DNA of 64,000 nucleotides from Nitrospirota bacterium (lineage in GTDB: Bacteria; Nitrospirota; Thermodesulfovibrionia; Thermodesulfovibrionales; UBA9159). The notes beneath the pieces were generated by a model, which was not told the DNA's origin, did no database searches, and saw only the letters and a program-made list of their open reading frames with translations. Numbering within the stretch: position 1 is the first letter of the stretch; each line of letters opens with the position of its first letter. The position numbers and the translations under genes are program-made. Location of the stretch: assembly GCA_021790195.1 (NCBI GenBank), contig JAJYIF010000010.1, positions 1 to 64,000 on the forward strand, written 5' to 3'. Below are positions 61,472-64,000 of the stretch, piece after piece.

Positions 61472-62560
61472 ATGAGCACTGTCAGAGATGACCAAAGTAT
61501 CTGGGAGGGACTTTCGAAGAAAGGCGTTTCGAGAAGAGACTTCATGAAGTTCTGTTCAACCATGGCTGCCACGCTGGCACTGCCATCCAGCTTTGTCCCC
61601 CGGATTGCAGAGGCGCTCGAGAAGAAACAGAAGCCGTATGCCGTATGGCTCGAATTCCAGGACTGCGCGGGAGACACCGAGTCCATCTTGCGCGCAACAA
61701 AACCTACCATTGCTCAGATAGTCCTTGATGTGATCTCTTTGGAATATCATGAGACGATCATGGCAGGCGCGGGAAAAGCTGCGGAAAAGGCTAGGGACGA
61801 CGTAGTAAAGAACCAGAAAGGCAAGTATATCGCCATCGTCGAAGGGGCCATTCCGACAAAAGACGGCGGCATCTACTGCACTATAGCAGGCAGGACGGCA
61901 CTCGACATTGCAAAGGAAGTCTGCGGCAACGCTGCCTTCACTATTAACGTCGGCTCCTGCTCCTGCTGGGGCGGCGTTCCGAGCGCAAATCCGAACCCCA
62001 CGGGGGCGGTGGGCACCGGCGAGGCGGTATCGGGAATAACCTATGTGAACATCCCGGGCTGCGCACACAATGTTGAGAACGCAACCGCCACGATAGTCCA
62101 CTATCTGACTTTCGGATCTCTCCCGCCCGTAGACAGCCACCACCGTCCGCTCTTCGGCTATGGCAAGAGGATCCATGACAACTGCGAGAGACGCGCACAC
62201 TTCGATGCGGGCCAGTTCGTGAGGAAGTGGGGAGACGAAGGCCACAGGCGCGGCTGGTGCCTTTACGAGATGGGCTGCAAGGGGCCGGAGGCCTATTACA
62301 ACTGCCCCACCGTGAAATATAATTCCGGAACATGCTGGCCTGTCCAGGCCGGACATCCCTGCATGGCCTGCGCGGCAGATCATAACTGGGACGCCTTCGG
62401 ACCGATCTACAAGAGACTCGAGAATGTTCCAGGAGCAGGTTATCAGACATCTGCAGATAAGATAGGTCTTGGTGTTGCAGCGGTAGCGGCAGCCGGTGTC
62501 GCAGCCCATGCAATTGCAAGGGCTGTAAAGGGCAAACCCAAAGACGAGGAAGATAAATAA
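61472..62560 (+). CDS. [NiFe] hydrogenase small subunit, Tat-exported, proximal-cluster Cys replaced by Asp
   Basis: A 362-residue protein. The Tat signal is SRRDFMKFCST (20-30). It carries electrons away from the active site through three Fe-S clusters. The distal cluster ligands are His235, Cys238, Cys263 and Cys269; the medial ones Cys278, Cys297, Cys300. For the proximal cluster, Cys65 is present in QDCAGDTES, but the second Cys of the usual CxxC (CTGC) is Asp68. Cys163 or Cys165 (GSCSCWGG) and Cys197 (NIPGC) complete it. This recalls group 1h enzymes, where an Asp is reported as the fourth ligand. A C-terminal hydrophobic helix (about 333-352) may anchor it. GGAGGTGAATCTTC precedes the ATG. 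Confidence 0.95.
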   Translation: MSTVRDDQSIWEGLSKKGVSRRDFMKFCSTMAATLALPSSFVPRIAEALEKKQKPYAVWLEFQDCAGDTESILRATKPTIAQIVLDVISLEYHETIMAGAGKAAEKARDDVVKNQKGKYIAIVEGAIPTKDGGIYCTIAGRTALDIAKEVCGNAAFTINVGSCSCWGGVPSANPNPTGAVGTGEAVSGITYVNIPGCAHNVENATATIVHYLTFGSLPPVDSHHRPLFGYGKRIHDNCERRAHFDAGQFVRKWGDEGHRRGWCLYEMGCKGPEAYYNCPTVKYNSGTCWPVQAGHPCMACAADHNWDAFGPIYKRLENVPGAGYQTSADKIGLGVAAVAAAGVAAHAIARAVKGKPKDEEDK

Positions 62561-62576: not shown

Positions 62577-64000
62577 ATGGCTAAGATCGCGATTGACCCC
62601 ATCACGAGGATTGAAGGACATCTAAGAATCGAGGCCCAGGTCGAAGGCGGCAAGGTCACGGACGCATGGTCATCCGGGACCATGTTCAGAGGAATCGAGA
62701 TCATCCTGAAGGGCAGGGACCCGAGGGAGTGCTGGGCGTTAACCTCGCGAATATGAGGGGTTTGAACAACGGTCCACGCACAGAGCTCCGTGAGAGCCGT
62801 GGAAAATGCAGTAGGCGCAACGATTCCTGATAACGCAAGGATCATAAGAAATCTTATTAACGGCATTCAGTACGTCCAGGACCATGTCATACATTTTTAC
62901 CACCTCCATGCCCTGGATTGGGTGGACGTGGTCAGCGCACTGAAGGCCGATCCTGTGAAAACAGCCGCGCTGGCCCAATCCATATCGGACTGGCATAATT
63001 CGAGCCACAGTTATTTCAAGGATATTCAGACCAGGATCAAGACATTTGTGGAAAGCGGCCAGCTCGGTCCCTTTGCAAGCGGCTATTGGGGACATCCCGC
63101 ATACAAGCTGCCCGCCGAAGCGGACCTTATGGCAGTGGCCCACTATCTTGAAGCCCTCGACTGGCAGAAAGACGTCATAAGGATGCAGGCGTTACTCGGT
63201 GCCAAAAACCCTCATCCGCAGACATGGCTTGTAGGCGGCATGGCCATACCGGTCGATCCCAACAGCCAGAATGCCATTAACGCCGGAAGCATCGCGTTCA
63301 TGAAGGAGCTTTCGAAGAAGGCCCTCGCGTTTGTCGAGAAGGTCTATATCCCGGATTTGCTTGCCGTGGCCTCCTTCTATAAAGAATGGGCCACTGTAGG
63401 GGGCGGAGTAGGTAACTATCTCAGCTACGGAGAGTTCCAAAACGACAATGTCAGCAACACAACGAACTGCTGGCTCCCGCAGGGTTTCATAAGGAACAAG
63501 AACCTGGCAAAAGTCGAGCCGGTCGATCAGATAAAGGTCGCCGAAGACGTGGCCCGTGCCTGGTATAAGTACAGCGGCGGAGACCAGAAGGCACTGCACC
63601 CTTATGAAGGAGAAACGAATCCGGACTATACCGGCCCCAAGCCGCCCTATGAATTCCTTGACACCGACAAGAAGTACAGCTGGGTCAAGGGAGTGGGATA
63701 TGACGGCCTCAGGACAGAGGTTGGGCCGCTTTCGAGAATGCTCGTCGCATACGGCTCAGGTCACAAGAGGATCAAGGAAGTGGTGGACATGGTTCTCCAG
63801 AAGCTCGGCGTTGGACCAGCGGCCCTTTTTTCGACTCTCGGCAGGACTGCTGCGCGGGGCGTAGAGACGCTGGTTACAGCGGAAATGCTGCCGGTATGGA
63901 TTGACGACCTTGCGGCGAAGATCAAGAGCGGAGACCTCCGCATTCATAACAACGATAAATGGGACCCTTCGACATGGCCGAAGGAGGCCAAAGGATACGG
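62577..64000 (+). CDS. [NiFe] hydrogenase large subunit, partial at window end, two in-frame TGA (candidate selenocysteines) in the L1 motif
   Basis: The frame from 62577 (AAAGGAGGATTGGA before it) reads MAKIAIDPITRIEGHLRIEA, keeps the conserved RIEGH, and stays homologous to group 1 large subunits for 474 codons to the window edge. It has only two stops: TGA at codon 60 (62754-62756) and codon 63 (62763-62765), reading RI*GV*TTVHAQSS. Ordinary enzymes have RICGVCTTVH, whose two Cys bind nickel. Cys elsewhere (codon 53) is coded TGC, and TGA ends many genes here, so recoding would be local: insertion of selenocysteine. A SECIS-like hairpin follows at 62773-62803. The C-terminal L2 motif lies beyond the window. 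A pseudogene or sequence error is less likely but not excluded. Confidence 0.85.
62773..62803 (+). promoter_or_regulatory. candidate bacterial SECIS element in the hydrogenase large-subunit gene
   Basis: TCCACG (62773-62778) pairs with CGTGGA (62798-62803); inside, GCTC (62785-62788) pairs with GAGC (62794-62797) around the apical loop CGTGA (62789-62793), with a 6-nt bulge on the 5' side. The loop starts 23 nt after the second TGA and 32 nt after the first, within the 16-37 nt commonly given for bacterial SECIS elements, and it has a G in its first two bases. One element could thus serve both codons. The inner stem is short, so folding must be tested. Confidence 0.5.

Follow-up and report, generated by a model that had tools for sequence, protein, structure and literature searches.

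A group 1 uptake hydrogenase is encoded near the end of the window (i.e., the whole stretch of 64,000 nucleotides analysed here) by an uncultured Nitrospirota bacterium, and two kinds of ligand position are altered in it. Its large subunit is, as comparison with relatives supports well, a di-selenocysteine (di-Sec) protein (RI-U-GV-U-TTVH), while its small subunit has Asp68 where a Cys usually holds the proximal iron–sulfur cluster. As a whole, the locus is probably best explained as a di-Sec group 1 uptake enzyme whose proximal cluster is held by three Cys. In the predicted proteins, the pair formed by Asp68 and the di-Sec motif is conserved over many species, and it is undescribed in the literature that we searched: no earlier description of the pair was found, the search being thin on subscription journals, and the N-terminal di-Sec motif is absent from the reviews of prokaryotic selenoproteins of 2022 and 2026. 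UxxC motifs in Sec-containing Ni-ligand subunits are described by both reviews, the 2026 one considering such subunits confined to sulfate reducers and methanogens.

The bias and the oxygen tolerance of hydrogenases can be studied or tuned through ligand changes at two places, the Ni site and the first electron relay. Here, both sites have been altered by nature in one lineage and intermediates survive (UU, CU and CC at the Ni site; Cys, Asp and Asn at the relay), so that the effect of each change can be tested with natural pairs. A Cys-to-Sec study of E. coli Hyd-1 (PNAS 2021) is cited in PMC11212049. Gene callers reading UGA as a stop would truncate these large-subunit genes.

The small subunit and the class of the enzyme

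The small subunit is 362 residues long (its sequence contains LEFQDCAGDTESILRATKP), with the twin-arginine signal GVSRRDFMKFC and the proximal motif DCAGD, which includes Cys65 and Asp68 (Table 1). In phmmer alignments with the small subunits of D. vulgaris Miyazaki and E. coli Hyd-2, Asp68 falls in the column of the second Cys of the proximal CxxC (CTGC). The sequence-only reading had claimed both this change from CTGC to CAGD and the retention of all distal and medial cluster ligands; the former was confirmed by the ORF translation and the phmmer alignments, the latter by alignment with relatives, in which the distal (His235, Cys238, Cys263 and Cys269) and medial ligands (Cys278, Cys297 and Cys300), intact in the window protein, are conserved, Pro290 beside the medial cluster being retained as well. 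Two residues ahead of this Pro, Cys288 (NSGTCWPV, 62333-62335) is found in the window protein only, its relatives having Ser or Asn. The AlphaFold monomer, which we used for the fold, is of moderate confidence (pLDDT 71.7), with a clear fold (Z 26.8 and rmsd 3.6 over 250 residues against 4u9h_S).

Table 1. Features of the hydrogenase locus (window positions).
Feature	Position	Strand	Evidence
[NiFe]-hydrogenase small subunit, TAT signal (SRRDF) and C-terminal hydrophobic helix	61472..62560	+	ORF; TIGR00391 424 bits; TAT_signal_seq; PF14720/PF01058; fold Z 26.8 to 4u9h_S
Cys65, first ligand of proximal cluster, codon TGC	61664..61666	+	Cys in all readable Sec-family rows
Asp68 (GAC), replaces second proximal-cluster Cys	61673..61675	+	ORF translation; phmmer alignment; alignment of relatives
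Cys163 (GSCSCWGG), proximal ligand	61958..61960	+	Invariant in relatives
Cys165, extra Cys near cluster, unconserved (7/54 Asp rows)	61964..61966	+	Alignment of relatives
Cys197 (IPGCAHN), proximal ligand	62060..62062	+	Invariant in relatives
Hydrogenase large subunit, 569 aa with both UGAs as Sec; continues beyond the window to contig position 64286	62577..64000	+	PF00374 761.8 bits, 2 TGA inside
UGA, first Sec of UGVU (N-terminal Ni-ligand motif)	62754..62756	+	ORF; profile match; comparison of relatives
UGA, second Sec of UGVU	62763..62765	+	ORF; profile match; comparison of relatives
SECIS-like hairpin, apical stem GCUC-cGUGa-GAGC	62773..62803	+	CTC.GTG.GAG across UU, CU and CC genes (counts in the text)

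Group placement relies on PDB match scores and on trees of relatives. The small subunit matches those of D. vulgaris Miyazaki (1e-92) and E. coli Hyd-2 (8e-91), with 5AA5 (1e-17) the weakest of the 43 PDB small-subunit matches, while the best match of the large subunit is A. vinosum 3MYR (1.5e-212), compared with 2.5e-44 for 5AA5. HucS (7uur) scores 4.7e-28 against the small subunit, far below group 1, which speaks against an affinity with Huc and group 2a. The features of group 1 respiratory uptake enzymes are present, i.e., the subunit families (TIGR00391 at 424 bits, PF00374, PF14720), the TAT domain, the distal cluster with His and three Cys, the medial one with three Cys and Pro, and a cytochrome b and a maturation protease in the operon. 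The usual four-Cys proximal cluster is missing owing to Asp68; four proximal Cys are, however, no condition of group 1 membership, since subgroup 1h already lacks them. The Asp itself is a trait of group 1h (CDGD of 5AA5 aligns with CAGD), but membership of that group was rejected because of the weak similarity to 5AA5 (HofKG) in both subunits, and in sequence the enzyme is not 1h-like, being much closer to ordinary group 1. Downstream of the large subunit lie genes for a cytochrome b561, a HycI-type maturation protease and HypC (PF01292, PF01750 and PF01455), a layout which, by sequence, is that of a quinone-linked uptake hydrogenase. The predicted product is a TAT-exported, membrane-anchored, cytochrome-b-linked group 1 uptake hydrogenase.

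Two in-frame UGA codons in the large subunit

Both UGA codons replace Cys of the N-terminal Ni-ligand motif (LTSRI-U-GV-U-TTVHAQS), whereas the C-terminal motif DPCMAC uses Cys codons, so that two of the four Ni-binding Cys positions are encoded as Sec. Sec is thus encoded at Ni-ligand positions, but at positions other than in classical [NiFeSe] enzymes, where it belongs to the C-terminal CxxC. A DNA pattern for U-G-V-U-T matched at least 119 stretches in species-level GTDB genomes; among the matches listed, most are the large-subunit gene in Nitrospirota and Chloroflexota (Anaerolineae, Thermoflexia), amounting to at least about 100 UGVU loci, and about a dozen are unrelated chance matches. 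A few contigs labelled Deltaproteobacteria or Proteobacteria fall within Nitrospirota rows.

The pattern left free the bases of a hairpin just downstream, as well as those of the Val codon that starts 27 bases past the start of the second UGA. This codon is GTG in 118 of the 119 distinct UU segments listed (GTDB pattern matches and genome searches combined) and only once in 14 homologues that have Cys codons in place of both UGAs. The whole CTC.GTG.GAG hairpin, with G and U in the loop, is found in 105 of these 119 segments, in all four single-UGA genes (CGVU) and in none of the 14 Cys/Cys homologues, although part of this contrast may be due to composition, because the Cys genes come mostly from one genus of lower G+C. 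Judged by such codon-level counts, which are the informative test for a SECIS here, the hairpin behaves as a bacterial SECIS would, its synonymous sites being conserved only where insertion of Sec is predicted. RNAalifold recovered only three pairs over the SECIS region, because the lower stem is variable; UU and CC genes could not be told apart by single-sequence folding z-scores over the whole region, and Rfam gave no match at the hydrogenase locus.

In the same genome, selB is present (377 bits, G000:C45), and two matches to tRNA-Sec exceed the Rfam gathering score (G000:C10:1221-1314 and G000:C36:66663-66753). Nearly the whole order carries selB, so its presence is no guide to whether a hydrogenase is of the Sec or the Cys kind. 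The possible di-Sec active site of the sequence-only reading is therefore well supported comparatively, by the loci, the hairpin, selB and tRNA-Sec. The partner subunit, with two stops in frame, could also be taken for a pseudogene or a misassembly, and Asp68 for a product of decay; yet the same two UGA positions recur in these loci of two phyla, where the flanking protein is intact and the hairpin is kept at synonymous sites. This conservation refutes the pseudogene reading, to which we give next to no credence. In the four large subunits with one UGA (L230 and L201-L203; CGVU), the SECIS-like hairpin is retained, and all four of the corresponding small subunits have Cys165.

Position 68 and the proximal cluster

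Among the readable Sec-type relatives (one or two UGA), position 68 is Asp in 54 of 104, Asn in 36 and Cys in 14, without any other residue, which leaves 90 of 104 with Asp or Asn. Because named contigs and numbered genomes overlap, only non-identical small subunits were counted, and the sequences are mostly MAGs. In Nitrospirota, all readable Sec rows carry Asp or Asn, among them 22 class-level rows that were added afterwards (partly copies of contigs already counted), and Cys68 is limited in this phylum to Cys enzymes. In the tree, the 14 Sec-type rows with Cys68 all bear the label Chloroflexota; most Sec enzymes of this phylum retain four proximal Cys, and four of its rows have Asn. Since 22 other Nitrospirota group 1 small subunits (about 40-50% identity) all have Cys68, the change belongs to the Sec-hydrogenase lineage. 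A mirror-image ligand change occurs in a separate Nitrospirota group 1 lineage (CGVCPTSH; rows L038, L218, L219, L267, L268, L275-L277, L279-L282, L284, L287 and L288), where the first proximal Cys has become Asp ([SC]D[ST]GC) and Cys68 is kept.

Two trees of the quick kind were computed with the trait columns masked (115 rows under LG+G4 and 76 rows under a mixture model). In both, a Nitrospirota clade having UU with Asp or Asn leaves the Chloroflexota rows (UU, four Cys) outside. Within this clade, Sec was lost several times: L226/L227, L199 and L204 are CC with Asp, L230 and L201-L203 are CU with Asp, and genus g15, probably Thermodesulfovibrio, is CC with Cys68 and nests beside the CU and CC rows with Asp. 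The AU test rejected a topology that unites every Sec row to the exclusion of every Cys row (p-AU 0.00027), but not one uniting the Nitrospirota Asp/Asn rows without g15 (p-AU 0.24). Both trees favour a regain of Cys68 from Asp in g15 and, given the latter value, such a return is likely, not proven.

All four combinations exist (Sec without Asp/Asn, Asp without Sec, both, neither), so the two traits are separable, and the earlier suggestion of two separate changes is borne out by the Chloroflexota enzymes with Sec but without Asp/Asn and by some Nitrospirota enzymes with Asp but without Sec. An obligate coupling, in which two selenolates require Asp or Asn at position 68, would account for the distribution within Nitrospirota, down to the Cys at both places in g15, but Cys68 is kept in the 14 Chloroflexota Sec rows and Asp was retained in five lineages after the loss of one or both Sec. 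We hold such a coupling to be very improbable, and its strict form is refuted by the Chloroflexota rows with Sec and Cys68 and by the CC rows with Asp; an independent-pairs test of the coupling had too few events to be informative.

Cys65, Cys163 and Cys197 are invariant in the alignment of the Sec family, and an ordinary four-Cys cluster does not fit most of the predicted proteins at all. The explanation that we favour starts from a hydrogenase lineage that encodes the N-terminal Ni-ligand CxxC as UxxU and that, among Nitrospirota, has Asp or Asn instead of the fourth Cys of the proximal cluster; the three other Cys would then hold the cluster. This could be [3Fe-4S], by analogy with Huc and its Asn in the same column, or a [4Fe-4S] cluster whose fourth ligand (Asp, water) is weak or exchangeable. 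Such a cluster, as the first electron acceptor next to a Ni site with two selenolates, would have a raised potential, favouring H2 oxidation toward the cytochrome b and quinone chain. The residue, the pattern of its conservation, the gene context and the Sec recoding signals are observed in the sequences, and from them we infer the cluster type, the potential and the direction of catalysis.

On the two trees, Asp and Asn replaced one another 9-10 times, so a carboxylate is not strictly needed, and this repeated exchange fits a three-Cys cluster better than an obligatory Asp ligand. That only Asp or Asn occurs, rather than any residue, nevertheless suggests a specific role, possibly true ligation. 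By analogy with group 1h, the cluster might be a true Asp-ligated [4Fe-4S] with the same working and oxygen tolerance, the Asn members being a derived weakening: Asp is the commonest residue (54/104), and both the Asp of 5AA5 in the same column, described as Asp-ligated, and Asp60 of FrhG are likewise placed. We consider this rather doubtful in view of the Asn that replaces Asp in many separate branches and of a sequence far from 1h. Of the Asp-ligated proximal cluster put forward by the sequence-only reading, the replacement of a ligand Cys by Asp thus stands, while ligation by that Asp is not established, Asn being common in close relatives.

Another residue (Cys165 in GSCSCWGG, or Cys66 or Asp166 in some relatives) might instead serve as fourth ligand of a near-ordinary cluster. 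The window protein does have Cys165, and an extra Cys66 (DCCGN) appears only alongside Asn68 (10/36 Asn rows, 0/54 Asp rows), with about 5-6 gains on the trees; it follows that some members may re-make a four-ligand cluster, and Cys66 with Asn68 hints at partial compensation, a paired phylogenetic test (independent pairs) having too few events. However, Cys66, Cys165 and Asp166 are all absent from 44 of the 54 Asp rows and 17 of the 36 Asn rows, and Cys165 is also present in Cys68 rows, which makes a substitute ligand improbable as the general solution. Cys165 and Cys288 were rejected as general replacements, the former being sporadic and the latter window-only. Asp166, near the ligand Cys163 (CAWDGG), is found in a subclade comprising L072, L164, L027 and their relatives, mostly with Asn68 (16/36 Asn rows, 3/54 Asp rows).

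The N-terminal CxxC of [NiFe] hydrogenases provides one terminal and one bridging Ni ligand. Returning to the three-Cys explanation, its most specific form, in which a Ni(Se2S2)Fe site (one Sec terminal, one bridging) would be wired to a high-potential three-Cys [3Fe-4S] proximal cluster, is put forward tentatively, as a possibility that we rate a little short of even. We know of no characterised hydrogenase that has this combination.

Comparison with known hydrogenases

The window enzyme has the same TAT signal and three-cluster small subunit as the group 1 uptake enzymes (D. vulgaris Miyazaki F 1H2A, E. coli Hyd-2, A. vinosum 3MYR), the same distal His/Cys and medial Cys ligands, the large-subunit C-terminal DPCxxC, and the cytochrome b and protease of the operon; it differs from them by Asp for the fourth proximal Cys and by UxxU for the N-terminal Ni-ligand CxxC. 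With group 1h (5AA5, HofK), it shares the Asp column (CDGD, with a mycobacterial 1h protein aligned to 5AA5), but the similarity is remote only in both subunits and 1h enzymes are without Sec. The sequence-only reading was right that an Asp-ligated proximal cluster is reported for group 1h, this Asp being cited as a ligand of the proximal [4Fe-4S] (PMC7174314).

Huc, of group 2a (7UUR/7UTD), also has a non-Cys residue in the column, i.e., Asn (CSGN, from the alignment), which is the second commonest residue in the Sec family. It differs in belonging to another subgroup, in lacking Sec and in having three clusters, all of the [3Fe-4S] type, whose potentials are given as about 250 mV above those of [4Fe-4S] (PMC10017518). 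Elsewhere in the genome of the window lies the gene of another hydrogenase, Huc-like (group 2a), with a proximal CGGD in place of the CSGN of Huc (L002:117-1043; G000:C21:52972-53898).

Sec as a Ni ligand is common to the window enzyme and the classical [NiFeSe] hydrogenases (D. baculatum 1CC1, D. vulgaris Hildenborough), but the latter have a single Sec, placed in the C-terminal motif, whereas in the former both Sec lie in the N-terminal motif and the C-terminal motif has Cys. Finally, in FrhG of the group 3a F420-reducing hydrogenase, Asp60 replaces a Cys at the proximal position (PMC3591093), as does Asp68 here, though in a complex that is cytoplasmic and archaeal, with a ferredoxin domain.
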